Translations under genes and position numbers: made by a program
The notes under the pieces: generated by a model
Databases searched by the model: none
What the model was told of the DNA's origin: nothing
The model's input: the letters and a program-made list of their open reading frames with translations, nothing else
Shown here: positions 446-20,600 of the stretch, piece after piece
How positions within the stretch are numbered: the stretch's first letter is position 1
How the letters are laid out: each line of letters starts with the position of its first letter
Source of the DNA: Bacteroidota bacterium
GTDB taxonomy: Bacteria > Bacteroidota > Ignavibacteria > Kryptoniales > JAKASW01
Direction of reading: 5' to 3'
DNA: 56,850 nucleotides
Assembly: GCA_021845665.1 (NCBI GenBank)
Contig: JAJZVO010000024.1
Coordinates: 1 to 56,850 of the forward strand

Positions 446-707
446 TTGGAGGTTTGTTCGACCAGCCAATAAACGTGTCAGGGAAATATGCAAGGTTGGC
501 AGGACCTCGGACAACTCCATTAGCTATAGAAGAACCTCCACAAGCGTAAGCACCTCCATTCGCAAAAGAACCTCGGCGCTCACAGGGCACAAGTGATTTG
601 TGAGCCGCTATTCGAGTGATTCCTTAATTCATACCATTGGTCCGGCTGTATCTCTTTAGGTACCGCAAGCAGTTTCCAAGAGCGACTGACAACCGAAGGA
701 GCTCGTG

Positions 708-3683
708 ATGGTACGATCAATTGTCAAAGGACTTACCTTTGCTATTCTGCTCTTCTCCTTATTAATCGTTCGCGCCCGTGCGGCACAGAACGGTACCGTC
801 CAGGGAAGCGTCCGGGATTCTCAAACGGGTGAAGCGCTCCCAGGCGCCAACATGCTGTTGCTGGGAACCAGTATGGGGGCGGCATCGGATCTGAACGGCA
901 ATTTCGTGATCAGAAATGTTCCTCCCGGCTCCTACCGTATGCGTGCCACCTATGTCGGTTACAACGCCAGGACAGTAGATGTCGTCATCAAGGATGGTGA
1001 GGCTGTTACCCTCGATCTGAAGCTTGACGCCGTCGGGATCAAAGGGAAGGAAGTGGTTGTCACGGCCCAGGCCAGCGGACAGAACTCCGCCATCAATCAG
1101 CAGCTCTCCTCCGTCCAGATCACAAATGTGGTATCAGCCGCGAAGATTCAGGAGCTCCCCGATGCAAATGCGGCTGAGTCAGTCGGAAGGCTGCCGGGTA
1201 TTTCGCTCATCAGAGAAGGAGGCGAAGCTTCTCAAGTCGTAATACGTGGTCTGGCACCACAATACAATCAAGTGACTATTGATGGTGTTGAGATGGCAAG
1301 TGACGTCGCATCTGCCAATAATCTGACGAGCACCGATTTAAATGACGTGAGCAATAGCCTGATGGGTGATAGGGGAATGGATTTGAGTATGATTTCATCG
1401 AACAGCCTCGGTGGAATCGAAGTAATAAAGGCAATTACACCTGACATGGACGCGGCAGTGCTCGGTGGAGTTGTCAATTTCGACATGAGAAAAGCCGCGG
1501 CAGGCACGCACGACCTCGTTCCAAATTTCAATTTGCTTGCCCAGGGAGCGTACAACCAGTTAAAGAACACGCGGAACGATTATAAATCCGTGGCCTCCGC
1601 CGAAAATCGATATCTCAACAACAACTTCGGCGTTTTTCTGGAAGGATCTGCCGAAAGACGAAATCTCAGCGACAACGAACTCAGTGTAGGTTATACGTTG
1701 AACGACAAGAGCCACGGTGATGCCGGGATACCCGATTTGACATCGTTAACTCTACAGGACGCGTACAGGATGCGCAATCGTTACAATGGTACACTCGTTA
1801 TGGACTATAATGCAGGGGGGACTAGCCTTGGCCTGATGAATTTCTTGAGCACGAGCGACACGAAAGCAACGTATAGAAATCAGACGGCTTATATATTGAA
1901 CGCCACCGGGCGGCAACTAAACTACGGCCTTACCGGCGCGGATACAAAATTGAATGTCTTGACCAACCTGTTGAGTCTAAGGACCTACATCCCACTTTTC
2001 CAGGTCGATGTCAGGTTGTCTCACTCGTACTCTGAAAATCAGGATCCCGGCGATGCCACCTTCGATTTTATCCAGGATTACGGCGGCTTCTCTGGCGGGG
2101 TCGGACCGTCGATCTCAAAGTTGCCCCCGAGTGTCATAGCGGCCTACATACAACCAAATGATACCACTGCCTGGTTGGACAACATCAGTAACTCCAGCAG
2201 CTTAACGAAGGAGCGGATTTATCAGGGAAAGATCGATCTTCTGCACGTGTTCAATATTTCCGACCTGTTCTCGGCTAAATTCAAATTCGGGGGGATGTAC
2301 CAGGAGAGAATCCGCTCTTACGCTTACGGTCAGAGAAGCGGCTCGACAATTTATGACGGGGGCGATGCAGTCGTTGTTGCGTTCAGAAGAGCGTTTCCGA
2401 CGTTGACCACGAACAACATCGGGTTAAGCCTGTCCAATTTTGTCTACGATGGCTACAGTTACGGCAATTTCCTCAACGGGGATTATACGATGGCGTACCC
2501 TCTGAACGACGGTTTGATGTGGAAGCTTGTGCCAATCGCCATGAAGACTAATGCCTCCACTACCATCGGTGGTGGATACAAGGCAAACGACCTGGCGTCA
2601 AGGGTCAACAACTATTCCGGCACCGAAAAACGAAGTGCTGCCTATGGGATGTTGACAATCGATATCGGCGACAAGCTGACACTTCTTCCCGGTGTCCGCT
2701 ATCAGAACCTCGCGACAACATATACAGGAGGAAGGGCAGATCTGACTATACCGGGCGGGGTCTATTCAGATACAACCGTCTCCGAATCTCACGGCTATTT
2801 TCTACCGATGGCTCATTTGATATACAGACCTGTTGATTGGCTGCAAATACATTTCGCTTACACAAACACGCTGAATTACCCTGACTATAGCATAGTCACT
2901 CCAAGGTATTCGATAACGACCAGTTGGGTTTCCATTAATAACTATCGTCTGAAACCGGCAACATCGGAGAATTTTGACCTGGCGTTCTCAGCTTACTCGA
3001 ATGCCCTCGGACTCTTGACAATAGATGGGTTCAGCAAGCGGATCAAGGACCTCATTTTCTATTCCCACACGATTGACACGAGTCTGGCGGCATATCCTGA
3101 ACTACCGCAATACACCGGTACCGTGTGGCAGATCGCTACCTATATTAACAGCCCTTTTCCCGTTAACGTCTATGGCCTCGAAGCTGACTGGCAGACTCAT
3201 TTTTGGTATCTGCCCGGACCTTTATCGGGGATGATTTTGAGCGTCAATTACACTCACATCTTCTCGCAGGCGCATTACCCTAAGACCATATACAACTTCA
3301 TTTACGACGAATACGGTAATGCCGTCAGACAAATTACCGATACTTCATACACGGATCGTTTACTCGATCAGCCGAATGATATCGCCAATCTGGCGATCGG
3401 ATATGACTACAAAGGCTTTTCGGCAAGAGTCTCGATGCTGTACCAGGATAATGTATTCAAACAGCCTGATTTCTGGATGCAACAGAGAGTTTTGTCTGCG
3501 AAATATACGCGATGGGATATTTCCCTCAAGCAGGACCTGCCGTGGCACGGACTGCAGGTCTATCTAAACCTCAACAATATAACAAGCGAAAATGACATCA
3601 GTATTAATGAACGGACCAGCTATCCGGCGTCGGAACAACGATATGGATCGGAGGCACAGTTAGGTATTCGTGTGAGATTGTAG
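708..3683 (+). CDS. TonB-dependent outer-membrane receptor, copy 1
   Basis: About 991 residues. An N-terminal signal peptide is followed by a carboxypeptidase-regulatory-like beta domain (about 27-110, motifs GEALPGAN, DLNGNF, VPPGSYRM), a TonB plug (about 115-260, with ELPDANAAESVGRLPG and VVIRGLAPQYN) and an outer-membrane barrel ending GIRVRL. This class imports a ligand, often an oligosaccharide, across the outer membrane using TonB energy. AAGGAG at 696-701 favours ATG 708 over the GTG three bases upstream. The next gene follows after 39 bases behind a strong AGGAGGT, so the two are probably co-transcribed. It is paralogous to the receptor at 6660: plug regions nearly match while barrels diverge, suggesting different ligands. 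No SusD partner is present, so the substrate is unknown. Confidence 0.93.
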   Translation: MVRSIVKGLTFAILLFSLLIVRARAAQNGTVQGSVRDSQTGEALPGANMLLLGTSMGAASDLNGNFVIRNVPPGSYRMRATYVGYNARTVDVVIKDGEAVTLDLKLDAVGIKGKEVVVTAQASGQNSAINQQLSSVQITNVVSAAKIQELPDANAAESVGRLPGISLIREGGEASQVVIRGLAPQYNQVTIDGVEMASDVASANNLTSTDLNDVSNSLMGDRGMDLSMISSNSLGGIEVIKAITPDMDAAVLGGVVNFDMRKAAAGTHDLVPNFNLLAQGAYNQLKNTRNDYKSVASAENRYLNNNFGVFLEGSAERRNLSDNELSVGYTLNDKSHGDAGIPDLTSLTLQDAYRMRNRYNGTLVMDYNAGGTSLGLMNFLSTSDTKATYRNQTAYILNATGRQLNYGLTGADTKLNVLTNLLSLRTYIPLFQVDVRLSHSYSENQDPGDATFDFIQDYGGFSGGVGPSISKLPPSVIAAYIQPNDTTAWLDNISNSSSLTKERIYQGKIDLLHVFNISDLFSAKFKFGGMYQERIRSYAYGQRSGSTIYDGGDAVVVAFRRAFPTLTTNNIGLSLSNFVYDGYSYGNFLNGDYTMAYPLNDGLMWKLVPIAMKTNASTTIGGGYKANDLASRVNNYSGTEKRSAAYGMLTIDIGDKLTLLPGVRYQNLATTYTGGRADLTIPGGVYSDTTVSESHGYFLPMAHLIYRPVDWLQIHFAYTNTLNYPDYSIVTPRYSITTSWVSINNYRLKPATSENFDLAFSAYSNALGLLTIDGFSKRIKDLIFYSHTIDTSLAAYPELPQYTGTVWQIATYINSPFPVNVYGLEADWQTHFWYLPGPLSGMILSVNYTHIFSQAHYPKTIYNFIYDEYGNAVRQITDTSYTDRLLDQPNDIANLAIGYDYKGFSARVSMLYQDNVFKQPDFWMQQRVLSAKYTRWDISLKQDLPWHGLQVYLNLNNITSENDISINERTSYPASEQRYGSEAQLGIRVRL

Positions 3684-3722
3684 ATCGCGAGCTACAAAAC
3701 GCTAACCCAAATAGGAGGTAAT

Positions 3723-5945
3723 ATGAAAAGAAAGACACGGCTGATACTTGTAATGCTAATCATGGGGTTCGTTACCCCAGGTCTATCGACAACCTTTTCC
3801 GCATGGTCTGATCAAAGAATAACTCTCTTTGGAGATCCCGATCTGAGCAAGCTCTACATCGGTGGTGGTGGGGCTTTGATGCCATCATTTGGTGGAGGTT
3901 GGACGCTTTTCGTATCAGTCAATCTGACAACGCCCAACCCGAGCAGCATAAAATTCTACGTGAACAATCCGCCCTATACACCCGGAGTGGCTCCAGTCCA
4001 GGCTTTCCTTTACGGAAAGGATACTTGGATAATAGACTTTCCGTTTCAACGCGGAACGCCATATACAATATTCGTCGGTGTTACCTATCCAGAAAAGATG
4101 GGAGTGTACACCTGTGGAACTTGGAGCGGGCGGTGGGATTTCCTCCTCGGAACGGAGCTTTCTCAATTGCAAAAAGTGTCAGATCAGACGGTAGATACTC
4201 TAGTCATTGCGCCCCTTCCGCCGGGAAATATCAATACCGTTATTAACGGAGATACGCTCGCTGGCGGTATAAGGGCGCACCCCAATCGCGTTTATGAATT
4301 GAAACGCGGCTTAGTCTACCAGGTGAGCGAACCCATGAGGATAAACGGCTCTCTTACGATCATCGATAGCGGTGCGACCACAACACGTCCTCCAGTACTT
4401 GCTCCGCAGATTCTTTCCGACAATTCTTCTGTGGATCACTTCTTCGAGCTGAATGGCAAAGGAAGCACAGTCACTATGAAGAATTTGTACCTCACCAATT
4501 TTCGCGCTGACGGAAGTATCTACGGCTGGGATGATTGCATCCGTATAAATGCCGACAGTATCAAACTAACGCTAAGGGGAGACATTTTCGACGGATTCGA
4601 CCACACAGTTCTGATGCTGGCAGGACAATGGGACAAGATGCTCGTCACAGACTGCACTTTCAGGAATGAGATGCACAACAGTTCATACTTCGGTGGAGGT
4701 TCTCTACTTTCCAACAGTCACACCGCCATGGATACCACGATTTTTGTGAACAACACTTTCTTCTGCAACAATTCCTACATCTGGTCTGTACGCGGGTATT
4801 GTCCCAACGCGGTGTTCTCTCACAACACGCTTGTCCTCGGCACTGTAAATCCTTTCTTGGCGCAAGTTGCGCAAAACATTCGAATGGAGAACAACATCTT
4901 CTATGCTATGCACTCTTACGGGGGAATTCCTGATCATGTAATAAACAGCTGGTTTCTGAATTACCCTGATACCGCGTCGAGCAGTATCATCCAGGCGAGA
5001 ACATACGATACTACCAGCACCTGGTATTATGTCTGGGGAGATAGCGGGAATGCAATTCCGGGTCCGGAGGTTTACGTCGGTGACGGCGGGACGGGCAATG
5101 TCAAAGTTACCGCAGCGATGGTTAATCCCTCCAGCAGACTTTTCCATCTCCGGCACAACGACTATTTCTGGCCGCAGTCATTATTTACTTTCTACACGCA
5201 ATACAATGACACTGTCAAGACCACTGATACCGTACAAGTGCCGAACATGACCACCTCTGAGGTCAACAAAGTGCTCCTCCGCAGGCTCTACCTGCCGAGA
5301 TGGATCAGCCAGTACACTCTGTATGCGATCGGTCAGATGAAAAAAAATGGGGCCGATGTCGATACATCAGGAAATTTGAACGTTGACCCACAATTCAACA
5401 CAGACATAACTAACCAATTCAACAAGTTGCTGTCCTATGTCGGAAAAATAGCGAGCAATAAACTGGATACCGCCTGGTACTACAATCCAACCAACGGTTC
5501 GCTTTATCCTCCGGCATGGCCTCTCGTTGAGAACCTCGCCTATACTAACACTTCGCTTCAGAATGCTGGCACCGACGGCTACGCTCTCGGCGATCTCAAC
5601 TGGTTCCCGACTCAGAAAGCAGCCTGGCTCGCTGCCGGCGGTCTGGCGCTCGGTGTCCAGAAAGTCCCGATTCAGGTCCCTGATAAGTTCGAACTGAGCA
5701 ATAACTATCCGAATCCATTCAACCCGTCGACAGATGTAAGAGTAAGCCTGAAGACGGCCGGTGTCATCAGCCTCAATGTGTACAATGTCCTCGGCCAGCT
5801 CGTTAAAGTGATCGACCAGGGATACAGGCCCGCAGGTGTGTACATCTATAATATCAACATGGACAACTTCGCGAGCGGTGTTTACTTCTATTCATTGCGG
5901 CAAGGAAGTAATTCGGTAACGAAAAAGATGCTTCTCCTTAAGTAG
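3723..5945 (+). CDS. Secreted beta-helix protein with type IX sorting domain, copy 1
   Basis: 740 residues, starting at an ATG behind AGGAGGT (3714-3720). A signal peptide (about 1-25) is followed by a unique beta-rich region (30-150) and a right-handed parallel beta-helix-like region with short hydrophobic/Asn turns (about 190-400; e.g. FVNNTFFCNNS, NIRMENNIF). The last 75 residues are a type IX secretion sorting domain: [26 protein letters not shown], and a terminal KMLLLK. The protein is therefore predicted to be exported and anchored or released at the cell surface. Such folds often bind or cleave polysaccharide, but no catalytic signature was recognised. It pairs with the upstream receptor, and the same pairing recurs at 6660/9864, implying joint work on one ligand. 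Confidence 0.88.
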   Translation: MKRKTRLILVMLIMGFVTPGLSTTFSAWSDQRITLFGDPDLSKLYIGGGGALMPSFGGGWTLFVSVNLTTPNPSSIKFYVNNPPYTPGVAPVQAFLYGKDTWIIDFPFQRGTPYTIFVGVTYPEKMGVYTCGTWSGRWDFLLGTELSQLQKVSDQTVDTLVIAPLPPGNINTVINGDTLAGGIRAHPNRVYELKRGLVYQVSEPMRINGSLTIIDSGATTTRPPVLAPQILSDNSSVDHFFELNGKGSTVTMKNLYLTNFRADGSIYGWDDCIRINADSIKLTLRGDIFDGFDHTVLMLAGQWDKMLVTDCTFRNEMHNSSYFGGGSLLSNSHTAMDTTIFVNNTFFCNNSYIWSVRGYCPNAVFSHNTLVLGTVNPFLAQVAQNIRMENNIFYAMHSYGGIPDHVINSWFLNYPDTASSSIIQARTYDTTSTWYYVWGDSGNAIPGPEVYVGDGGTGNVKVTAAMVNPSSRLFHLRHNDYFWPQSLFTFYTQYNDTVKTTDTVQVPNMTTSEVNKVLLRRLYLPRWISQYTLYAIGQMKKNGADVDTSGNLNVDPQFNTDITNQFNKLLSYVGKIASNKLDTAWYYNPTNGSLYPPAWPLVENLAYTNTSLQNAGTDGYALGDLNWFPTQKAAWLAAGGLALGVQKVPIQVPDKFELSNNYPNPFNPSTDVRVSLKTAGVISLNVYNVLGQLVKVIDQGYRPAGVYIYNINMDNFASGVYFYSLRQGSNSVTKKMLLLK

Positions 5946-5968
5946 TGGATCGGTTCCGTTACTGCATG

Positions 5969-6000
5969 GGACTGCCGGTTTCCCGGCAGTCCTTTTTTTT
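5969..6000 (+). terminator. Rho-independent terminator
   Basis: Perfect 10-bp stem GGACTGCCGG (5969-5978) / CCGGCAGTCC (5983-5992), a 4-nt loop and eight T's. It ends the first receptor/beta-helix transcript 24 bases after the stop codon. Confidence 0.93.
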
Positions 6001-6242
6001 AACTCTTCGGTGCATGGTTTGTTTCCAATTCAACGTGTGGGTGGCTTCTCATTGCTTTGACAAACATAAATGCGAATTGGTGCCGTCGAAGCTGCTCTTG
6101 CGACACAGCGGTCAATTTCCCCAAGTTTATAGAAGGAGCGATTTATTCGTTAAGAAACTCAACCGACCGCACCATCGGAGCTGTACTATAACAAATCGCC
6201 TTAAAATGGAGAAATTTCAGGCCTGCCCGATGCAGAAAGTTC

Positions 6243-6271
6243 TTGACAATAAGGTGTAGGTTGTCTATAAT
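6243..6271 (+). promoter_or_regulatory. Perfect consensus sigma70 promoter for the second receptor unit
   Basis: TTGACA at 6243-6248, exactly 17 bp, then TATAAT at 6266-6271: both hexamers match the consensus at every position. The inferred start near 6278 gives a leader of about 380 nt before the receptor ATG at 6660. It follows the terminator at 5969-6000, so unit 2 is transcribed independently of unit 1. Confidence 0.8.
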
Positions 6272-6505
6272 TAGTTGGTTTTTTCGAGCGACCGACAAAC
6301 TGCGACACCCACAGCCAGAGAGAAGCAATAGAACCTTTGTTTACGCAGAAGCACTTTCCATTACCCCCGACGCCAAAAACCTCGGCAGTACCGAATTTGA
6401 TTGACTCTCCGAGTACCCACCAGGCGAAGCGATCGACAAACATCCGGAACTCTGTGGAACCAACCGCACTGTTCAAGAAATTAGTCGTAAGGAGTGCGCC
6501 ATGTC

Positions 6506-6541
6506 CCGAAGAAGGACCGGGCGATCGCCGGGCTTTTTCGG
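6506..6541 (+). other. Hairpin in the long leader of receptor 2
   Basis: CCGAAGAA (6506-6513) pairs with TTTTTCGG (6534-6541, one G-U), enclosing an inner CCGG/CCGG stem around 6517-6531. It lies within the transcribed leader, just after an ATG (6501) with its own AAGGAG that is in frame with the receptor. It could act in attenuation or translational control. Nothing else in the 6272-6659 leader was recognised. Confidence 0.4.
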
Positions 6542-6659
6542 CACTTCTAATTACGGAAGTATCGCTTTGTTCGTCCTCGCTAGGTTTAACTCGAGCCAAA
6601 GCGGAAGACTCGAGTGGGATGCTGCATCCCTTGAAAAGAAATCATCAAAGGAGAAAATG

Positions 6660-9650
6660 ATGCGCGGAAGAATTTTTACCGCTTTCAGTACATTAATTCT
6701 GTCTCTCTCTTTCTTCTGCGGGATTGCCTATCCCGCTGCCAGCGGCACCGTGGAAGGAATAGTCAAGGACGCTCAAACAGGAGATGCGCTCCCGGGCGCA
6801 AATGTCCTGATAGTCGGAACGAGCCTCGGTGCGGCGACCGACCTGAACGGCAGGTTTACTGTGGAAAATGTTCCTCCGGGATCATATGAGATCCGGACCA
6901 CTTACGTCGGGTACAAGTCAAAGACGATGCATATCGACGTGAACCCCGGTGCGAAGCTTAATGTTGAATTCAAGCTTGCCGCCGTCGGCATACAGGGCAA
7001 AGAGGTCGTGGTTACTGCCCAGGCGAGCGGACAGAATGGCGCAATCAACCAACAGCTGACTTCCGATCGCATAGAGAACGTGGTGTCCGCGGCGCGCATC
7101 CAGGAACTGCCGGACGCTAATGCGGCAGAATCGGTGGGAAGGCTTCCCGGTATATCTCTGATCAGGGAAGGGGGGCAGGCTACGCAAGTTGTGATCCGTG
7201 GATTGGCGCCTCAGTATAACGAGATCACTATAGACGGGGTACAGATGCCGGGAAATGTCACTTCGCTTAGTAACGCAGGCACTATCCAGTCAAGTGGAGC
7301 AGGCAGCAGCGATCTTACTTCAGCTTACACATCCGGTGACCGCGGTGTTAACCTGAGCATGGTTTCGTCGAGCATGCTGGGAGGTATTGAGGTGACGAAG
7401 GCAATTACACCGGACATGGATGCAGCCGTGCTCGGCGGCGTCGTGAACTTCACCCTGCGAGAAGCAGCAACGAGAAAAGCTCAGCTGCATCTGCTTGCCC
7501 AGGGTGGATACGATAATCTGAAGAGTACCTATAACGATTACAAGTTCGTCGCGACATTCGAGAAGCGTTTTTTTGACGACAAGTTCGGAGTGTTTGCCGA
7601 GGGTGACGCCGAGCGGCAGAACCTCTCAGCTAATGAACTCGGCGCGAGCTATAGCGTAAATAGCCCGAAGTTGAATGTCACGAACCCGATATACCTGGAC
7701 GGCGTGACCCTTCAGGACATACCGAGCACAGAGAAGCGATACGATGCTACTTTGACTCTGGATTATCGCCTTCCCGATGGGAAGATCGGTCTAATGAACT
7801 TTTTCAGCTCCGGCATCACTAATAGTGTGAATCGCAGCGAGAGCTTCAACCTTGTCGATGGTGGAAACGACCATGTGTACGGCCTCCAGGCGCAGCAGCA
7901 AAATTTGACTGCTGCAACCAGTATACTTGATTTCCAGCAGCAAATATCGGCATTGAACGTTCACCTGAAACTTTCGAATGCCTTCTCTCAAACCCAGCTT
8001 CCCTATATAGATACATGGAACTTCGTGCAGGGATTGCCGACCGGCTTTAGTTCATTGGGGGCCGAGAGCCTTAGCCCGACTCAGATTCCGGCCTTGGCTT
8101 ACGATAGCCTGCAGATAACCGGCCTGGATCTGCTAAAGCAAGCGTCCAGCATGTTAAGACAAGACGACATAGGGGCACAGCTGGACTTCAAGACAAACAT
8201 AAATTTCTCCAACCAAGTTACGAGTGTGCTTAAATTTGGCGGAGCATTCAGATACACTAACAGATCATTTAATTACCTCCAGGGTGACGGAAACGTCGAA
8301 CCGAGTGGAGCCAATGTGGTGGCGGGCATCGCTCAGAATTACCCATGGATGCGATCCACAATAAACACCTACGGCGCAATCCTCCCGTTGTTCGCCGACA
8401 GCAGCTACAGCTACGGCAGCAATTTTCTGGGAGGTGGATACAAAATGGGCCTTCCTATAAACCTGGCACTCATGGAACAGGTGCTGAACATTGCAAAGAG
8501 GACCGGCACGCTGGAGTCCTGGTCTCCCGATGCGTTGCAGTCGGGAATCAACAACTACTGGGGGCAGGCATACAGGAGCGCGGGTTACGGAATGATAACG
8601 GTGCATTTTGGCCCTGACCTGACTTTCCTGCCGGGCGTCAGATACCAGGTGTTGCAGACCGAGTTCGGTGCCCCGAGGGCGCTCTCCCGCCTTGGCCCTG
8701 CTTCGAGGTATCAGTTTGCACATTACGATACCACAATGAATGAAGCGAACGGGTACTGGCTCCCGATGGTTCATTTGATCTACAACCCAACCTCGTGGTT
8801 CCAGATTCACCTGGCATATACAAACACACTGAACTATCCCGATTACACCGACATAACGCCTGAACTGGATGTCGGAAATAACAGCGTCGATTATCATAAC
8901 TATCTTCTGAAACCGGCAACCTCGGCAAATTACGATGCCATATTCTCCGTTTACGATAATACGCTTGGTCTCATCTCTGTGGATGCCTTCTACAAATCCA
9001 TACACAATTTAGTATTTCAGAATGGTAACTCGTCGGCACCGGCCTATATAATTAACCCGGCAGACTACCCCGGTCTCCCGAGCTATACCGCCGGATACTC
9101 GATAACGACTGCTATCAATGACCCTTATCCAGTCTACGATTATGGAGCGGAGATTGACTGGCAGACACACTTCTGGTATCTGCCCGGCCCGCTTTCAGGG
9201 CTAGTCCTCAATGTGAACTACACGCATGTCATTTCGAAAGCGAAGTATCCCTATACTTATCTCAACTTCGTTCATCCTACATATCCGGTGGTGGTCGATA
9301 CGGTTAGCGCTCCCTTCTGGGACCGCCTAATCGACCAGCCGAATGATATTGTCAATGTAACCCTCGGCTACGATCTGGGTGGTTTCGGCGCCCGCGTCTC
9401 TATGCTCTACAACGGCAATATATTCCAGTCATACAACTTCTGGCCGCAACTACGATCAACTACGGCCCAATTGCTTCAGTATGATGCTCAGGTCAAACAA
9501 GATCTGCCGTGGTCCGGGCTTCAGGTCTACTTGGATCTGAACAACATAAACGGTGAACCGAACATTCAGAATATTCAAGGTTCGGGCTTCCCAAGCTACG
9601 AATATTATTACGGTATGACGGCAGATCTTGGGATAAGAATGCAAATATGA
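6660..9650 (+). CDS. TonB-dependent outer-membrane receptor, copy 2
   Basis: About 996 residues. Layout matches copy 1: signal peptide, carboxypeptidase-regulatory-like domain (GDALPGAN, DLNGRF, VPPGSYEI), TonB plug (ELPDANAAESVGRLPG, VVIRGLAPQYN) and a barrel ending GIRMQI. The role is energised uptake across the outer membrane; the ligand is unknown. ATG 6660 was chosen because AAAGGAG (6647-6653) lies 6 nt upstream and it places the signal peptide at the N-terminus. An in-frame ATG at 6501 with AAGGAG would add 53 residues before the signal peptide, so it is less likely but worth noting. The gene is followed by its own terminator, unlike copy 1, so its beta-helix partner at 9864 may be expressed separately. 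Confidence 0.93.
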   Translation: MRGRIFTAFSTLILSLSFFCGIAYPAASGTVEGIVKDAQTGDALPGANVLIVGTSLGAATDLNGRFTVENVPPGSYEIRTTYVGYKSKTMHIDVNPGAKLNVEFKLAAVGIQGKEVVVTAQASGQNGAINQQLTSDRIENVVSAARIQELPDANAAESVGRLPGISLIREGGQATQVVIRGLAPQYNEITIDGVQMPGNVTSLSNAGTIQSSGAGSSDLTSAYTSGDRGVNLSMVSSSMLGGIEVTKAITPDMDAAVLGGVVNFTLREAATRKAQLHLLAQGGYDNLKSTYNDYKFVATFEKRFFDDKFGVFAEGDAERQNLSANELGASYSVNSPKLNVTNPIYLDGVTLQDIPSTEKRYDATLTLDYRLPDGKIGLMNFFSSGITNSVNRSESFNLVDGGNDHVYGLQAQQQNLTAATSILDFQQQISALNVHLKLSNAFSQTQLPYIDTWNFVQGLPTGFSSLGAESLSPTQIPALAYDSLQITGLDLLKQASSMLRQDDIGAQLDFKTNINFSNQVTSVLKFGGAFRYTNRSFNYLQGDGNVEPSGANVVAGIAQNYPWMRSTINTYGAILPLFADSSYSYGSNFLGGGYKMGLPINLALMEQVLNIAKRTGTLESWSPDALQSGINNYWGQAYRSAGYGMITVHFGPDLTFLPGVRYQVLQTEFGAPRALSRLGPASRYQFAHYDTTMNEANGYWLPMVHLIYNPTSWFQIHLAYTNTLNYPDYTDITPELDVGNNSVDYHNYLLKPATSANYDAIFSVYDNTLGLISVDAFYKSIHNLVFQNGNSSAPAYIINPADYPGLPSYTAGYSITTAINDPYPVYDYGAEIDWQTHFWYLPGPLSGLVLNVNYTHVISKAKYPYTYLNFVHPTYPVVVDTVSAPFWDRLIDQPNDIVNVTLGYDLGGFGARVSMLYNGNIFQSYNFWPQLRSTTAQLLQYDAQVKQDLPWSGLQVYLDLNNINGEPNIQNIQGSGFPSYEYYYGMTADLGIRMQI

Positions 9651-9679
9651 AATTTGATTTTAACAACATTTCCGGAAAC

Positions 9680-9719
9680 GGGCCGGGAATTCTCATAGAG
9701 ATGGCCCTGAGTTTTTTTT
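9680..9719 (+). terminator. Rho-independent terminator after receptor 2
   Basis: GGGCC (9680-9684) pairs with GGCCC (9703-9707), with an inner TCTC/GAGA stem, followed by eight T's. The outer stem is short, so partial read-through into the downstream gene is plausible. Confidence 0.65.
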
Positions 9720-9736
9720 CACCTACCGAGGAGGTG

Positions 9737-9831
9737 ATGATGCTAAGTCATTTATGATCATGTTTAGGACGAAACGCCGTCACGCGGCTGAAATGTCGCG
9801 CGAAGCGGTTATTCTTTTCAAGAACAATTAA
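9737..9831 (+). other. Two coupled mini-reading frames in the leader of the second beta-helix gene
   Basis: An AGGAGG lies just before ATGATG at 9737/9740, which opens a six-codon frame (MMLSHL). Its TGA overlaps an ATG (ATGA at 9754-9757) that opens a 25-codon basic peptide ending at TAA 9829-9831. The arrangement resembles a leader peptide with translational coupling, but both frames are very short and could be chance or relics. Confidence 0.3.
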
Positions 9832-9863
9832 CTCAAAGAACCTCAAGAAGGAGAAGGATCTAC

Positions 9864-11660
9864 ATGAAAGCGATTTTAACGGCGATGGTTCTCTCGGCTG
9901 TTGTGATACTCGCTTGTATGCCCCGAGCCGTATATGCACAGTACGGCAGCGGATCGGCTTCCGATACTGTATGGGTTACCCCGAGCATGGGGAACGGAAG
10001 CCTGAGCGATTACATTGGCTCAGACACGACATCAACCGGAGCAAGGGCAAATCCCAATGCGATTTACGCCCTTTACAGAGATTCGGTTTATTTCTTCACG
10101 GGTCAGATAAACGTCAATGGAAATTTGACGATTGTCGCACAACCCGGGACGTCTACTCCTCCAGTGATAGCTCCGGCCGTCCTGGCTGATGGATCGTCAC
10201 CCAGCACCTTCATAAACTCAGACGGCGGCAACCTCACCATGAGAGGCCTGTACCTGCTTGGTGTGCCGTATAACAGCCATTGGCTCGGCTGGGGAGATGC
10301 TGTCGTCATTAATGGGGACAGCAGCGATGTCCATGTGGATAGCTGCGTCTTCGACCAATGGAGCGACGGCGCCATGGATTCTTTCGGGAGCTGGGAAAAC
10401 TTCTATATCACGAACTGCTACTTCGTGAACGATATTCACTCGTCGTCCTACTTTGGAGGGCACGACTGGGAGTCGCACGGCAATCCGGTCGACACCTTGA
10501 TGATAGTCAATAATACTATGTTCAATAATAACTCGTATGCTGATGTGCCGACGGGTTATGTCAAGTTTGAACGATTTGATCATAACACGGTCTGTCTTAC
10601 CCAGGTCAACCCGATGAATGATTTCTTCGGCACGAATGACTATATCGAAAACAACATCTTCTATTCGACACTGATGGTCGGCCAGCAAATTGATGAGGCC
10701 TACGCCGAGTGGTATGATACAATATTCTATAAGTCCTTCGCGTGGAGCGCTTCATCAACGATCAGCACAGACACCCTTGGACTCGACCCTTCCCTGGCGC
10801 AAGCCTTCGGTGGAACGGAATCCAATAGAGTCTATAAGGTACTTAACAATGCATATTACTGGCCGGCATCAATCCAGAATTTCTGGACGGCATACAATGA
10901 TACAGTTACCAAGATGGTGAAGGTAAGCTATCCTGATTCTGTGGTGAACCTCAACCATCCGCCGAATGACACGCTCGTAGACACAGCTACCGTTAAGGCT
11001 ATTCTTATTCCGCCCCAGGGATTCATGAACGGCCGCACGCAGCATATGTTTACCGATAAGGCGGAATGGCCCGATTTCATTGCGGCCAACAACGATAGTG
11101 TTGACCCTGGCTTCCCGTCCTTCGTGTCCGACCAGATCGACAGCGCGATAAAGTATGTTCTCGATATCAGAGCAAACGCATATCCGAACTACATGTGGGA
11201 TTATACGAAGGGTCAGCCGTTGTTCAGCTGGCTGTGGCCTTTACCGGAACTCACATACTCGAATACTTCGTTACAGCATGCCGGTACTGACGGCTACGCT
11301 CTCGGAGATCTGAACGCGTTCCCGAGCCAGTTGGCGGCATGGAAGGCTGCCGGCGGTCTGGCCCTCGGCGTGCAGAAGGTCCCGAACACAATTCCCGAAG
11401 CCTTCGCGCTTTCACAGAACTACCCCAACCCGTTCAACCCGACGACCGAAATCAAGGTCAGCCTGAAACAGGCGGGCGTCGTCAACCTCGACGTTTACAA
11501 TGTCCTCGGCCAGCTCGTCAAGGTCGTTGACAACGGTTACAAGCCTGCGGGCGAGTATGTTTACAACGTTAATATGGACGCCTTCGCTAGCGGTGTCTAT
11601 TTCTATAGGCTGCAAGAAGGGGCTAACTCAATAACCAGAAAGATGCTTCTCCTTAAGTAG
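9864..11660 (+). CDS. Secreted beta-helix protein with type IX sorting domain, copy 2
   Basis: 598 residues, ATG behind an AAGGAGAAGGA stretch. After a signal peptide (about 1-26) comes a parallel beta-helix-like region (about 85-270) and a C-terminal type IX sorting domain ([26 protein letters not shown], terminal KMLLLK). It is clearly a paralogue of the 3723 protein: shared landmarks include the NSTxYLGxDxLG-like turns, SSYFGG, NNTMFNNNSY and the AGTDGYALGDLN segment before the sorting domain. It lacks roughly 140 residues of the unique N-terminal part of copy 1. It probably works at the cell surface with receptor 2. The function is unknown; polysaccharide binding or cleavage is a guess from fold and context. 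Confidence 0.86.
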   Translation: MKAILTAMVLSAVVILACMPRAVYAQYGSGSASDTVWVTPSMGNGSLSDYIGSDTTSTGARANPNAIYALYRDSVYFFTGQINVNGNLTIVAQPGTSTPPVIAPAVLADGSSPSTFINSDGGNLTMRGLYLLGVPYNSHWLGWGDAVVINGDSSDVHVDSCVFDQWSDGAMDSFGSWENFYITNCYFVNDIHSSSYFGGHDWESHGNPVDTLMIVNNTMFNNNSYADVPTGYVKFERFDHNTVCLTQVNPMNDFFGTNDYIENNIFYSTLMVGQQIDEAYAEWYDTIFYKSFAWSASSTISTDTLGLDPSLAQAFGGTESNRVYKVLNNAYYWPASIQNFWTAYNDTVTKMVKVSYPDSVVNLNHPPNDTLVDTATVKAILIPPQGFMNGRTQHMFTDKAEWPDFIAANNDSVDPGFPSFVSDQIDSAIKYVLDIRANAYPNYMWDYTKGQPLFSWLWPLPELTYSNTSLQHAGTDGYALGDLNAFPSQLAAWKAAGGLALGVQKVPNTIPEAFALSQNYPNPFNPTTEIKVSLKQAGVVNLDVYNVLGQLVKVVDNGYKPAGEYVYNVNMDAFASGVYFYRLQEGANSITRKMLLLK

Positions 11661-12023: not shown

Positions 12024-13325
12024 ATGAATGATGTCCTGAAAAAAAGAAGTCCCGCTTTCTGGGTCCCTACACTCTATTTTGCAGAAGGACTCCCGTTCGT
12101 TGTTATAAACGTCGTTTCGGTCCTGATGTACAAATCGCTCGGAATTAACGATGCGCAGATAGCCTTCTTCACCACGCTCGTCATTCTACCCTGGACTCTC
12201 AAACCTCTGTGGGGCCCGGTCCTTGAGATGTTCAAGACGAAAAAGTATTTCGTTATCGCAACTCAGTTCATCGGGGGGATCGGCTTCGGGGTCCTCGCCC
12301 TCAGTCTTAAACTTCCTTCCTTCTTTCAGTACTCCATCGCCCTGATGGCCATCATAGCTTTCAACGGCGCGACTCACGATATAGCCGCCGACGGGGTCTA
12401 TATAAACGCTCTTACACCGAAAGAGCAGTCGGAGTATGTGGGATGGCAGGGTGCATTCTACAATGTCGCAAAGGTCCTTTCGCAAGGCGCTTTTGTCTTT
12501 CTCGCCGGGCAACTCCAGGAATCTGTCGGCGTGGTACACGCCTGGATGATCGTCATGGGCCTTTTCGGCGGAGTGATGATTCTGCTCGGCATCTATCACG
12601 CAAAAATGCTCCCCACCGGTGGTGCCGCCGGTCAGGTAAAGTCCGCGAAAGAAGCATTCGGAACCTTTTTGGACGTCGTCAGGACTTTCTTCGCGAAACA
12701 ATACATAGGATGGGGAATCGCATTCATCATCTTGTACCGGTTCGCAGAAGGCCAGGCGATGAAGATCGTCCCGCTCTTCTTCAAGGCGAGCCGCGCATCG
12801 GGCGGACTCGGACTCTCGATTTCCCAGATCGGAATCATCTATGGCATATTCCCGCCAATAGCATTCATAGCGGGATCGATACTCGGCGGCTATTTCACGG
12901 CGAAGTACGGCCTCCGTAAGTCGCTTATCGTTTTGTGCGCATTCTTCAATATACCGTTTGCCGTGTACCTTGTATTGGCATATTCGACCCCAACCAGCCT
13001 ATTGTTGATCGGTACCGCAACGACACTCGAATATCTCGGCTATGGCGTCGGCTTCATCGGTCTGACATTGTACATGATGCAGCAGATCGCACCGGGTAAA
13101 TATAAGATGGCACACTACGCCTTTGCCACCGGCGTGATGAACCTCGGACTCATGATCCCGTCCGCGTTGAGCGGCTTCATCAGCGATTTCCTCGGGTACA
13201 AACATTTCTTTCTCTGGGTGATGATTGCGACGATACCGTCGTTCCTCGTTACGTGGTTTGTGCCTTTTAGAAAAACCGAGGATGCTAATTCGGAGTTACC
13301 CTCCGCTGACAATGCGATTGGGTGA
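12024..13325 (+). CDS. MFS permease, AmpG/PAT-like (sugar or muropeptide type)
   Basis: 433 residues with about 12 hydrophobic segments and an N-terminus typical of the AmpG-like branch of the major facilitator superfamily (YFAEGLPFVVINVVSVLMYKSLG, split by a short loop). The family carries sugars, glycoconjugates or muropeptides across the inner membrane with protons. The motif NGATHDIAADG (around residues 113-123) fits the AmpG/PAT type. It lies 98 bases upstream of a GH94 phosphorylase and ahead of a GH125 mannosidase, so an oligosaccharide substrate feeding a cytoplasmic phosphorylase is the simplest inference. Substrate specificity cannot be read from the sequence. Confidence 0.85.
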   Translation: MNDVLKKRSPAFWVPTLYFAEGLPFVVINVVSVLMYKSLGINDAQIAFFTTLVILPWTLKPLWGPVLEMFKTKKYFVIATQFIGGIGFGVLALSLKLPSFFQYSIALMAIIAFNGATHDIAADGVYINALTPKEQSEYVGWQGAFYNVAKVLSQGAFVFLAGQLQESVGVVHAWMIVMGLFGGVMILLGIYHAKMLPTGGAAGQVKSAKEAFGTFLDVVRTFFAKQYIGWGIAFIILYRFAEGQAMKIVPLFFKASRASGGLGLSISQIGIIYGIFPPIAFIAGSILGGYFTAKYGLRKSLIVLCAFFNIPFAVYLVLAYSTPTSLLLIGTATTLEYLGYGVGFIGLTLYMMQQIAPGKYKMAHYAFATGVMNLGLMIPSALSGFISDFLGYKHFFLWVMIATIPSFLVTWFVPFRKTEDANSELPSADNAIG

Positions 13326-16087: not shown

Positions 16088-17530
16088 ATGACATCGAGGA
16101 GGGACTTCTTAAGAACAGGTGGGCTTGCAATGGCCGGACTTTCACTATTGAACAGGAACCCGCTGCACTCGGCGCTCGGTGCCGCTGCACAGGCCGCGGG
16201 CGATTCCAACAGCAAGCGTCCCCCGCTCGATAAGAGAAGATTCGTGAGCGAAGCAGTCGATGAAGAAATACGAAGGGTGCAGGCACAAATCGGCAACCAC
16301 GATCTTGCCTGGATATTCGGCAACTGCTATCCTAACACGCTCGACACCACAGTCCAGCTTGGGATGATCGATGGCCGTCCGGACACTTTCGTAATCACAG
16401 GTGATATAGATGCCATGTGGCTGCGTGATTCCAGCGCACAGGTCTGGCCATATCTCCCGCTCGTTAACCAGGATCCGAAGCTCAAAGAGCTTATCGCGGG
16501 AGTGATTAACAGGCAAACGAAATGCATCCTCCTTGATCCTTACGCCAACGCGTTCAACTACGGCCCAACCGGAAGCCCGTTCGACAAGGATCTGACAACC
16601 ATGAAGCCCGGCATACATGAGCGAAAATGGGAAGTGGACTCGCTATGTTACCCGATCAGGCTGGCGCACCGCTATTGGAGAGAAACAGGAGACACCTCTC
16701 CATTCGATAGTAAATGGCGCGATGCGATGAAGCTCGTGGTCAAAACATTCAGGCAGCAGCAGAGAAAGGACGGTCACGGCCCCTACAAATTCCAGCGGGT
16801 CACGGCAGTCCAAACCGATACCGTCGCAGGAGGCGGTTATGGCAACCCGATTAAACCCCTCGGTATGATAGTCTCCATCTTCCGCCCATCCGATGATTCC
16901 ACGATTTTCCCCTTCCTCGTCCCGTCAAATCTGTTTGCCGTCCACGTCTTAAAGCTGCTGTCGGAGATGTCCCGCGATATCATGAAGGACGAAAGGTTTG
17001 CCGGTGATTGCGCCTCGCTCGCCGATGAGGTGTACGAGGCAGTCCAACGGTATGCGGTCGTGAATCACCAGACGTTCGGCAATATGTACGCGTATGAAGT
17101 CGATGGGTTTGGCGACCACTCGTTCATGGATGACGCCAATGCTCCCAGCCTTCTCTCCCTGCCGTATCTGGACTGCGTGCCGGAAAGCGACCAGGTCTAC
17201 CAGAATACCAGGCAATTCCTCTTCAGCGGGAGCAACCCTTACTTCTTCAAGGGAACGGCGGGAGGTGGGATCGGAAGCGCCCACACCGGCCTCGGTAAAA
17301 TATGGCCGATAGCAATAATGATGCGCGCCTTCACGAGCAGGAACGATAATGAGATTTCAACTTGCATTTCCACTCTCGTCGAGTCGAGTGCCGGCACCGG
17401 CTTCATGCACGAATCGTTTGACGAGAACGACCCGAAAAACTTTACCCGAAGCTGGTTCGCATGGGCAAACACGCTCTTCGGCGAGCTTGTGATACGGCTT
17501 CAGAAAGAAAAGCCGTATCTCCTTTCCTGA
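16088..17530 (+). CDS. GH125 exo-alpha-1,6-mannosidase, Tat-exported
   Basis: 480 residues. The N-terminus SRRDFL followed by a hydrophobic stretch is a twin-arginine signal, so the folded enzyme is exported. The body is glycoside hydrolase family 125 (formerly DUF1237): GDIDAMWLRDSSAQVWPY (about 115-132), RKWEVDSLCYPIRLAHRYW (about 179-197), a central NMYAYEVDGFGDHSFMDDAN segment and MHESFDENDP near the C-terminus. Known members remove non-reducing alpha-1,6-mannose by an inverting mechanism. GGAGG stands 5 nt before the ATG. In Bacteroidetes such enzymes usually sit with mannan or N-glycan genes; here the neighbours are a permease and a beta-disaccharide phosphorylase, so either the locus handles a mixed glycan or the genes are functionally separate. 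Confidence 0.92.
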   Translation: MTSRRDFLRTGGLAMAGLSLLNRNPLHSALGAAAQAAGDSNSKRPPLDKRRFVSEAVDEEIRRVQAQIGNHDLAWIFGNCYPNTLDTTVQLGMIDGRPDTFVITGDIDAMWLRDSSAQVWPYLPLVNQDPKLKELIAGVINRQTKCILLDPYANAFNYGPTGSPFDKDLTTMKPGIHERKWEVDSLCYPIRLAHRYWRETGDTSPFDSKWRDAMKLVVKTFRQQQRKDGHGPYKFQRVTAVQTDTVAGGGYGNPIKPLGMIVSIFRPSDDSTIFPFLVPSNLFAVHVLKLLSEMSRDIMKDERFAGDCASLADEVYEAVQRYAVVNHQTFGNMYAYEVDGFGDHSFMDDANAPSLLSLPYLDCVPESDQVYQNTRQFLFSGSNPYFFKGTAGGGIGSAHTGLGKIWPIAIMMRAFTSRNDNEISTCISTLVESSAGTGFMHESFDENDPKNFTRSWFAWANTLFGELVIRLQKEKPYLLS

Positions 17531-17621: not shown

Positions 17622-20600
17622 CTATTTCATTCCGTCAACCGGCGTAGGATCGAGTATGACGGCCAGTATGCCTTTCGCCTTCAGCATGTTGTTGAACGCG
17701 GGTATGGTCGAAGTCATCAACGTCTTGTATTCGACTTCGACATTCTCCATCCGGCGGTTTAGCATATTAAAAACTGTCACGTCCTGGTCGGTTGGTGCGA
17801 AATCGGGACTTCCTGGCACATCTCCTGCACCGTCTCCGACCTCGCCTGCAAGCCACAGAAATTTCATGTAAAGCTTCATAGGAGCCGCGTATGTCTTCTC
17901 ATCGTCGGCGGCGAGATATTTCTGGAATAACCTATTCTCCACTTTCTGGATTTTCCAGTCAAGCGTTTTAGCAGACTCCACGATTGATGACGCGTCGGGC
18001 AGTCCTTGTATGTAAACGGGCATGTCCTCGATCTGCTTACGGACCCGCTCGATCGAGTTGATCATTCCAACGACTGTGTCTACATCAGCGTCTATTGCTC
18101 GCCAGAGCTTAACGCTTGCCCTAACATCCGCAAGTGTCCCGGCAGAATGAGGATCTTTGATGACAGTCAGCGGCTGCTTCAAAGTCTTCCCGTTGACCGT
18201 CAACTCGACGGTGTAATTGCCGGGATCGGCAAGCGCTCCCATCAGTGTCGGACTGATGCCCCAGTGATAGATAGGCCGCGTCGTTTTTCCGATGAATCTC
18301 TGGTCGCTCCATATCTGCGGGTATGCCGGGGGCGTCGTCCTTAGCTTCACCGTCCTCACGTCGGGATATCGCAGGTTCCAGTAAACACGGTTAATGCCCG
18401 CCTCCTTCGTTCCCTGAAATGTGCGTACCACATTCCCCGCGGAATCGAGTATCGTGATCTTCACGTTTCCTTCAGGAACCGTCTTCAGATAATAGTTAAT
18501 GTCCGCTCCATAAGGCGGGTTCTGTCCCATTGAAGGATCGTCCGGAACTTCCCGTGGTACGCTTATGCGGCGAAATCGATATGCAGGCCGTGTCCTGAAA
18601 AAGTACTCGGATGAATTAAGGACATCCGGGGTGAGTTGCTCCAGAGGTTTGATATCGTCGAGTATCCAGAATCCCCGCCCCTTCGTCGCGAGGACCAGGT
18701 CGTGAAAATGCTTTTGTATGACCATCCATGATACTGGCGCGTGTGGAAGGTTCGTGTTGATGGGTATCCAGTGCGTCCCGTAATCGTACGTCATGTAAAT
18801 CGAGTTTTCCGTTCCCGCGAAAAGCATTCCCTGCCGGAATGGATCTTCTATCACCACATGCACATAGCTGAAAACGCTCTCCGGAATATCTACGCTGATT
18901 AACTTCCATGTTTTGCCGTAATCCGTGGTCATATAAATGTATGGATTGCGGTTATCCATCTGGTGGAAGTTGAAATTGATGTACGCGGTTCCGGCGTTGA
19001 ATGTGGATGGTTCTATGTGGCTGACCGTGCCGTACTTCGGAAGGTCCGGGAAATTCTGTGTCACGTTTATCCAGTTCTTTCCGCCGTCCGTGGTCACGTG
19101 GACAAGTCCATCGTTTGAGCCCGCCCAAATCACACCTTCTTTGATCGGCGAAACCGCCAACGCCGTCAGGGTTCCCCAGTACTCGACGCCGAGGTTGTCC
19201 GGTGTAAGCCCGCCCGAACTTCCCATGTGGCTGTGATCGTCGAGAGTAAGATCGGGGCTGATGACCTGCCAGCTCTGCCCCGCATCCGTCGTCCTGTGAA
19301 CGTATTGGCTCCCGACATAGACTGTATTATGATGCAGCGGGTCGATGACCAGCGGCATCGTCCAGTTCCACCTGTATTTCAATACGCCTGCTGGAGAATC
19401 GAGCGACTTGCTCGGCCACGGGCTTACCGACCGTGTCTGGCCGGTTTTCAAATTGAACCTGTCGACTTCGCCGGCGTAGCAGTTTCCCCAGACGATATTG
19501 TCGTCCACAGGGTCCGGATAGGAAAAACCCGACTCGCAGCCCGCTGTCGTGCTCCAGTCGCTGGAAGGAATTCCGCCGTACGTCCGCGTGTCGCTCGGTC
19601 CCCGTACCGACTCGTCGTCCTGCATGTTGCCGTAAAGGTAATAGGGCACTCTGTTGTCGACGGCGACGTGGTACATCTGTCCGATCGGGAGCACGATATG
19701 ATGCCAGCTCTTTCCGTGTGTCGTCGAGATGAAAAGTCCGATGTCGCTTCCTATCATCATGCGGTTCGCATTTGTAGGATCGGCCCACATCGCATGGTTA
19801 TCTCCCGCCCAGTAAGTCTGGTAGACTGTTCTACCGCCGTCGAGTGTGTACCAGATCTCGTTGGAAGGGAAATAAACCTCGTTAGCGTCGTCGGGAGAAA
19901 TCATAAGACGGGTGTAATAGTGTGGCCGCTCGGCGAGCATTCGGTTGTAGCTGACTATGTGCCACCTTGCACCTCCGTCGCTCGACCTCCAGAGCGAGCC
20001 GCGCCCGTTTCCGCCGGTCTCGATCAGGGCGTACATAACGTCGGGATCGCTCTGTGCAATTCCAACGGCAACTTTACCGACCGGCCTTTTCGGAAGACCG
20101 CTGGTGAGTCTCACCCAGGTGGCTCCTTCGTCTCGCGACATCCAAACACCGCTCCCCGGTCCGCCGCTCTTCTGTCCCCATGTATGAATCACGTACTGCC
20201 AGGTCCCCGCGAGAAGTATCCGTGGATTATCGGGGTCCATTGCAAGATCCGACGCGCCGGTGTTCGGGTTTACAAACAGGACGCGCTTCCATGTCCTGCC
20301 CCCATCTGTCGTTCGGAAGACGCCTCTCTGTCGCTGCGGCCCGTAACAGTTGCCTTCGGCGGCCACAAGTACGATGTCGGGATTCTTTGGATCTATCACG
20401 ACGCGCGAAATCCTCCCTGTCCGTGTCAGTCCCATGTGCGTCCAGGTCTCGCCGGCGTCCGTCGATTTGTAAACACCGTCGCCTATCGACACATTGCTCC
20501 TGATGAATGGCTCGCCGGTCCCGACCCACACTATATTATGATCAGATGCCGCGATCGCAATGTCTCCGATCGATTGCGCGGGCTCTTTGTCGAATATCGG

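Follow-up and report, generated by a model that had tools for sequence, protein, structure and literature searches.

The textbook uptake system for polysaccharide fragments in Bacteroidota is SusC/SusD, and clusters of glycan-use genes are usually found through their susCD pairs. The locus described here raises the question of whether a TonB-dependent receptor can instead be partnered by a secreted beta-helix protein (BH) that carries the sorting tail of the type IX secretion system (T9SS). The window, by which we mean the whole 56,850-nucleotide stretch of DNA analyzed, is the entire contig C129 of a 4.64-Mb draft genome that is 95.6% complete; its closest named relative is the metagenome-assembled "Bacteroidetes bacterium" L141, with 96% identity across the beta-helix. 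Two receptor plus type IX beta-helix pairs had been placed at positions 705 to 11660 in a preliminary description, and both are present there on the + strand in the order receptor 1, BH1, receptor 2 and BH2, followed by genes of the MFS, GH94 and GH125 families:

705 to 3683, + strand: TonB-dependent receptor 1, with a CarboxypepD-like domain, plug and barrel (TIGR01782, 343.6 bits)
3723 to 5945, + strand: BH1, T9SS-type beta-helix partner 1, with an extra N-terminal domain; sorting tail at residues 662 to 737
5968 to 5993, + strand: terminator-like hairpin closing pair 1, with 11 pairs and a T-rich tail
6243 to 6271, + strand: sigma-70-like promoter match 5′ of pair 2 (12 of 12 positions)
6657 to 9650, + strand: TonB-dependent receptor 2, with the same domains (TIGR01782, 297.9 bits); open frame from 6501
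9864 to 11660, + strand: BH2, T9SS-type beta-helix partner 2; helix at residues ~33 to 490, sorting tail at 520 to 595
12024 to 13325, + strand: MFS transporter (AmpG/BT1-like), the next gene after BH2; an MFS gene also follows in L141
13423 to 15825, + strand: GH94 family phosphorylase-like enzyme (PF17167, E = 2.8e-176)
16088 to 17530, + strand: GH125 alpha-mannosidase-like enzyme (PF06824, E = 1.3e-167)

Receptor 1 starts with a GTG at 705 or an ATG at 708 and is separated from BH1 by 39 nt; receptor 2 probably starts at 6657 rather than at 6501. Because a terminator-like hairpin follows BH1 and a full promoter match precedes receptor 2, the sequence suggests that pair 1 and pair 2 are separate transcription units, one each; the hairpin and the promoter are the best sites of each kind, and such sites occur overall about as often as expected by chance. 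It is probable that the MFS gene is part of the same utilization locus as pair 2. The extra N-terminal domain of BH1, ≈130 residues long (residues ~22 to 155, window positions 3789 to 4187), is found only in BH1 and, when searched against the ORFs of 21 source-genome loci, matched only itself. Elsewhere in the window are two proteins of ≈1080 residues with repeated Asp-box–like motifs, at 17622 to 20855 (− strand) and 44604 to 47888 (+ strand); the latter matches Sortilin-Vps10/BNR and the former is similar by eye.

Both receptors harbor CarbopepD_reg_2, Plug and TonB barrel domains (Pfam). Receptor 1 scores above the cut-off of 310 for TIGR01782 (TonB-Xanth-Caul) and receptor 2 just below it; against TIGR04056 (OMP_RagA_SusC), the two reach 61.7 and 63 bits versus a cut-off of 368.25 and are not members. 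By these profile scores the window receptors are TIGR01782-like and not SusC. BH1 and BH2 each end in a T9SS type A sorting tail (TIGR04183, 41.1 and 45.8 bits versus a cut-off of 23), and both thus carry the C-terminal sorting domain described by TIGR04183/PF18962; a local tail profile detects this tail in 73 of the 74 paired BHs of the named loci considered below. The T9SS translocon gene sprA is found in the source genome (SprA_N, PF14349, on C17, 148.3 bits, over the cut-off), and a simple pattern test of the N-terminal 60 residues of the BHs found no lipobox-like motif. The helix of BH1 and BH2 matched no Pfam family, CAZy-type families included, and 12 of the 18 source-genome BH homologues matched the generic Beta_helix model at E ≤ 1.

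The source genome encodes 23 TIGR01782 receptors, counted from 28 of 34 TIGR01782 matches after pieces of single genes were joined; six weak matches of ≤41.4 bits (one each on C77, C72 and C83, and three on C75) were left out. The gene downstream is visible for 20 of these receptors and is a BH in all 20, complete in 18 cases and cut by the contig end in two. For the other three, on C44, C135 (the first copy) and C58, the contig stops at the receptor gene or close behind it; the C58 receptor is followed by 717 visible nt that contain no BH. A profile of the 18 helices finds 24 BHs in this genome: the 20 that are paired, two at contig ends (C98 and C7) and two with no receptor in view (C124 and C30:94847).

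Searches of other genomes extend this pairing across the phylum and beyond it, to related phyla. BHs are found in 17 of 41 relatives' genomes, the genus alone contributing 12 of its 13 genomes (the source genome counted); in a phylum-wide draw, they occur in 51 of 394 genomes, which represent 34 of 171 genera. A receptor lies directly upstream of the BH in 30 of 32 relatives' loci and in 39 of 44 loci of the phylum draw (best match per genome). A single scan of 84,980 species genomes supplied 79 named loci, of which 74 have this arrangement; the locus sets share species and are not independent samples. The 30 relatives' loci comprise 12 of 12 matches listed from other families of the class and 18 of 20 matches within the genus, the latter being the first 20 in random order of 115 genus matches (28 prepared); the two exceptions, L075 and L082, are 970- and 1322-aa forms. 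Among the 74 paired named loci, the median gap between receptor and BH is 114 nt, with 69 at ≤300 nt. The titles of the named loci include Ignavibacteria, Melioribacteraceae, Saprospiraceae, Rhodothermia, Balneolaceae and Prolixibacteraceae as well as Calditrichota, KSB1, Neomarinimicrobiota and Cloacimonadota; L196, a small contig in a "Gammaproteobacteria" bin, is probably mis-binned.

The exceptions are few. Five of the 44 phylum-draw loci break the order, with the receptor following the BH in L128, L132 and L136 and no receptor in view in L104 and L109; in the first three, the BH is followed by a 225- to 247-aa ORF that matches part of the receptor profile and then by a longer receptor ORF. 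Four of the five exceptional named loci start ≤95 nt from a contig end, and only L206 (Cloacimonadota) is a true miss, with at least four BH-like T9SS proteins in tandem and no receptor in view. In one further locus (L103), the BH gene is seemingly split into overlapping frames of 395 and 516 aa plus a 197-aa piece with the tail, perhaps by a frameshift. In the reverse direction, a BH lies downstream of at least 87 of the 105 full-length TIGR01782 receptors of the relatives, a count that was at least 81 before 20 of the 24 misses were inspected and six were found to have a BH; six receptors lie at or near contig ends, and 12, of which 11 were inspected, have no recognized BH. Downstream of four BH-less receptors (L251, L257, L264 and L265) are other genes, encoding a DUF4855 protein, a GH16 enzyme with a T9SS tail and T9SS proteins of 1337 to 1395 aa, which are possible alternative receptor partners.

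A SusD is almost never found at these loci. The possibility that one had been overlooked by Pfam was rejected with a local SusD profile (10 sequences) run over all ORFs of 21, 42, 46 and 79 loci, which found only two genes on C86 and one in L111. There was no match in the window, which begins 704 bases 5′ of receptor 1 and so would not show a SusD gene lying farther upstream, nor in the other 20 source-genome pair loci; elsewhere, the SusD source locus L059 aside, only L111 matched. The source genome thus has two SusD-like genes, both on C86 (L059), versus 24 BHs, and each of the two lies directly 3′ of its own different, larger receptor. SusD is also rare in the relatives, with PF14322 matched in 16 of 41 genomes and over the cut-off in only four. 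The earlier proposal that receptor and beta-helix are a paired system other than SusC/SusD is supported: the pairing is conserved elsewhere, and SusD is nearly absent from the loci as far as they are visible. At the level of sequence, adjacency, co-orientation, the T9SS tail, sprA, recurrence across phyla and the near-absence of a neighboring SusD are established features of these loci. We consider it probable that a receptor and its BH constitute one two-component outer-membrane glycan-uptake unit, in which a T9SS beta-helix stands in place of SusD.

To place the BH among known folds, we turned to structure prediction. An AlphaFold model of BH2, built from a 70-row alignment (the window's two BHs and 68 of the 74 paired BHs of the named loci), has a pLDDT of 84.3 and a pTM of 0.77 and consists of one helix and a separate tail. 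With a structural aligner, this model matches residues 425 to 747 of BcAlyPL6 (7dmk) with a Z-score of 31.4 and an rmsd of 2.5 over 294 residues. Next come the equivalent C-terminal domains of further two-domain PL6 enzymes (Z of 24 to 25; residues 439 to 727 in 5gkd), followed by pectate lyase, endo-polygalacturonase, RbmB and other beta-helix proteins; a fused model from another species (L166; see below) also matches the PL6 C-terminal helix (Z of 30.4). A sequence profile reaches residues 445 to 682 of BcAlyPL6 with E = 5.8e-8, the only good E-value among solved structures, and Foldseek on BH2 returned nothing at E ≤ 0.001, its top rows being mostly small sorting-domain or Ig-like chains. 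The BH is thus predicted to fold as one right-handed beta-helix that resembles the C-terminal helix of PL6 alginate lyases. The catalytic N-terminal helix domain of PL6 is missing in BH2, which has one helix only.

Conservation was examined in 71 aligned BHs chosen without the GDLN pattern, by which the named-set BHs were found and which is invariant there by construction. Most of the conserved positions are Asn (189, 216, 241 and 264) that recur at intervals of roughly one helix turn, a ladder that looks structural; also conserved are D54, L70, Y76 and G481-D-L-x-W485 near the helix ends, and D210 and H240, the last two in 92% of these sequences. Conservation stays below 75% for every Lys, Arg and Glu, and a residue set of the lyase type is not seen. 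These data bear on the main rival to an uptake unit, namely, that the BH is a T9SS-secreted beta-helix lyase or hydrolase that cuts surface glycans, with the receptor importing the products and no stable complex formed. In favor of an enzyme, lyases and hydrolases abound in this fold class (PL6, pectate lyase, endo-polygalacturonase and RbmB), and D210 and H240 are widely conserved; however, the best match is to the C-terminal PL6 helix and not to the N-terminal domain. The catalytic residues of PL6 are presumably a Lys and the Arg corresponding to R241 of AlyGC, and the R241A mutant of AlyGC, whose structure (5gkq) is among the fold matches, places this residue in the N-terminal domain. The lack of a conserved Lys, Arg or Glu, the structural look of the Asn ladder and the absence of any CAZy-type Pfam family on the helix also argue against an enzyme, a reading we regard as unlikely, at roughly one chance in five.

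The two pairs were initially described as having highly conserved plugs and divergent barrels and helices, the outcome of a tandem duplication followed by ligand diversification. The first observation is correct: pair 1 and pair 2 are 59% identical in the CarboxypepD-like domain, 73% in the plug, 42% in the barrel, 35% in the helix and 73% in the tail. The corresponding means across the 18 complete source-genome pairs are 49, 62, 36, 29 and 61%; because this is the general pattern of all 18 pairs, the plug/barrel contrast is nothing special to the window pairs, and a conserved plug is uninformative here as a sign of ligand diversification. The duplication does not hold up, since pair 1 is sister to the C101 pair (barrel, 68%; helix, 63%) and not to pair 2, which rules out a simple or recent tandem duplication within the window. 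By identity, pair 2 has nearer relatives than pair 1 in the C107 and C41 pairs, and the side-by-side layout of two pairs is already found in a related genome (L139/L141). In the C101 locus (L035), the gene after the closest BH to BH1 encodes a group II intron–type reverse transcriptase.

Among the 18 source-genome pairs, barrel and helix distances are correlated with r = 0.89 (permutation p of 0.00005), compared with 0.79 for plug and helix and 0.68 for the helix and its own tail. Of 500 barrel subsets matched for size, none correlated with the helix less well than the tail does, and of 500 matched for conservation, 10 did; the partial correlation of barrel and helix given the plug is 0.68, and that of plug and helix given the barrel is −0.03. 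The barrel–helix correlation may come in part from shared clock or rate effects, both parts being fast evolving, and the weaker helix–tail correlation can be due in part to exchange of tails among T9SS cargos. Groups supported in both the receptor and BH trees are C129a with C101, C26 with C55, C56 with C68, C134 with C56, C68, C86 and C59, and C135 with C4b, C54 and C30; the trees disagree where support is weak or branches are long, as for C125 and C4a, and within the C4b/C54/C30 group. Taken as sequence histories, these comparisons show receptor and BH diversifying together as a cassette.

A joint model of barrel and BH was obtained from L166, in which the receptor and BH genes are in one frame and the intergenic DNA can be read through. 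The fusion comprises the barrel without its plug and the BH without its tail, and its alignment used 97 of 117 prepared rows, 22 of them joined pairs. The resulting AlphaFold model has a pLDDT of 88.9 and a pTM of 0.82, with only the linker disordered; a simple calculation gives an expected pTM of ≈0.6 to 0.7 for an undefined mutual placement, and a pTM of 0.82 equates to a mean inter-domain error of ≈7 to 9 Å if the barrel itself is well placed. The model of the complex thus suggests that barrel and BH adopt a defined mutual arrangement. Foldseek on the fused model lists receptor barrels; receptors for siderophores, cobalamin and haem and SusC receptors match the barrel with similar scores (Z of 20 to 23).

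Adjacency, covariation and the joint model together weigh on a second alternative, in which the BH acts on its own as an adhesin or as a structural protein of the surface or cell wall, sharing an operon with the receptor and making no physical or functional contact with it. T9SS tails are common to many unrelated cargos in the genome, several of them beside pairs, and BHs without a receptor do exist (L206, L075 and L082), which speaks for such a protein. This alternative nonetheless sits poorly with receptor–BH adjacency over a wide phylogenetic distance, with congruent trees in which the helix tracks its partner barrel better than its own tail, and with the confident joint placement in the predicted complex, and we hold it to be improbable, more so than a secreted enzyme.

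The nature of the ligand is suggested by the neighboring genes. We scanned the first complete ORF on the same strand within 600 nt downstream of the pair, 47 ORFs in all from the 74 paired named loci. Among the 25 of 54 Pfam families listed are GH2 (7), GH18 (4), sulfatase (3), glycoamylase (3), GH53, GH29, GH76 and GH130 (2 each) and GH94, GH125, GH92 and glucuronyl esterase (1 each); in a control of 40 unselected source-genome ORFs, for which 25 of 93 families are listed, GHL10 (2) is the one family there that clearly denotes glycoside hydrolases. In the source genome, 20 ORFs were scanned, a selection from 29 downstream ORFs plus one upstream ORF (L035:7538), and pairs were found to neighbor GH13 (C135), a heparinase-like lyase (C41), GH2 (C134), GH10 (C54), GH76 (C86), a melibiase-like enzyme (C55), a glucuronyl esterase (C4a) and, in the window, GH94/GH125. 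Ill-fitting neighbors are RCC1-repeat T9SS proteins, a group II intron maturase and peptidyl-prolyl isomerase–like genes. The RCC1-repeat proteins with T9SS tails lie downstream of pairs in L037 (C26) and L040 (C68). Because different pairs adjoin different carbohydrate enzymes, ligand diversification among the pairs is plausible from gene context. Import of a nonglycan such as a metal chelate, cofactor or peptide, as in BtuB–BtuG, XusA–XusB or HxuC–HxuA, would suit a barrel equally near siderophore, cobalamin, haem and SusC receptors and has a precedent in HxuA, a secreted protein that partners the haem receptor HxuC at the surface (PMC4873976), but we consider it very unlikely, given downstream genes rich in carbohydrate enzymes, unlike the unselected ORFs, and up to 24 copies per genome, which fits many glycans better than one cofactor.

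For the glycan-uptake unit that we favor, the following mechanism can be envisaged. The BH would be exported by the T9SS and would stay at the cell surface, on or beside its receptor, where it is predicted to dock on the barrel in a defined way. There, it would bind an oligo- or polysaccharide and, acting like a lid, pass the glycan to the barrel, which would import it with TonB energy; the BH would thereby do the job of SusD with an unrelated fold and by an unrelated export route. Different paralogous pairs would serve different glycans, and pair 2, beside the MFS, GH94 and GH125 genes, may serve a mannose- or glucose-containing oligosaccharide. Several observations count against an uptake unit: 12 of the relatives' 105 receptors lack a recognized BH, five of 44 loci break the order and two source-genome BHs have no receptor in view. 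A neighborhood rich in glycoside hydrolases does not show that the BH binds glycan, and T9SS cargo can also be released into the medium, which counts against a BH held at the surface.

A broader proposal is that these pairs are a widespread second answer to the SusC/SusD problem, in which a class of TonB receptors uses a T9SS beta-helix as a glycan-capturing lid, the helix being derived from or ancestral to the noncatalytic PL6 helix, with two dozen glycan-specific pairs in some genomes largely replacing SusCD, in Bacteroidota and neighboring phyla. We put this forward tentatively, at somewhat less than even odds. If the pairs do the job of SusCD, many utilization loci would be invisible to a susCD search, in taxa that include Ignavibacteria, Melioribacteraceae, Calditrichota, KSB1, Balneolales and Saprospiraceae, and the receptor–BH pair would be a simple marker for them. 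It would also follow that the surface partner of a receptor can be delivered by type IX secretion and that a beta-helix can replace SusD.

The principle of a receptor with a surface partner is already known from SusCD, BtuB–BtuG, XusA–XusB and HxuC–HxuA. In searches of open-license full-text papers, we found no description of a T9SS beta-helix as the partner of a receptor. HxuA, the partner in the last of these systems, is one that we take to be a beta-helix. HxuC/HxuA combines a TonB receptor with a surface protein exported by a separate route, for haem (PMC4873976). It differs from the pairs described here in using two-partner secretion rather than the T9SS and in its ligand, haem versus the glycan proposed here. 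BtuG and XusB are lipoprotein partners of other folds, with cofactor or siderophore ligands. BtuB–BtuG and XusA–XusB each join a receptor to a dedicated surface partner that delivers the ligand (PMC10404256, PMC13142918). BT1025-26 are tabulated as a TonB-dependent receptor and a DUF4957 protein (PMC10434189); the DUF4957/DUF5123 proteins of Bacteroides are approached by one of 18 BH helices, which weakly matches DUF4957 (E = 0.0034).

The PL6 alginate lyases BcAlyPL6 and AlyGC share the C-terminal helix with the BH, by sequence (E = 5.8e-8) and by fold (Z of 31.4). They differ in that the BH is a C-terminal–type helix alone, without the N-terminal helix domain and with a T9SS tail, and in that no lyase-type residue set is conserved in it. 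Finally, SusC/SusD (RagA/RagB) and the utilisomes resemble the receptor–BH pairs in that a CarboxypepD-like TonB receptor is encoded with a dedicated surface partner and in that many paralogous pairs are found per genome, beside glycan-degrading enzymes. The receptor there is a member of TIGR04056, whereas here the scores are 62 to 63 bits versus 368, and the partner there is the SusD lipoprotein, whereas the partner here, a beta-helix ending in a T9SS tail, shows no lipobox-like motif in the pattern test.
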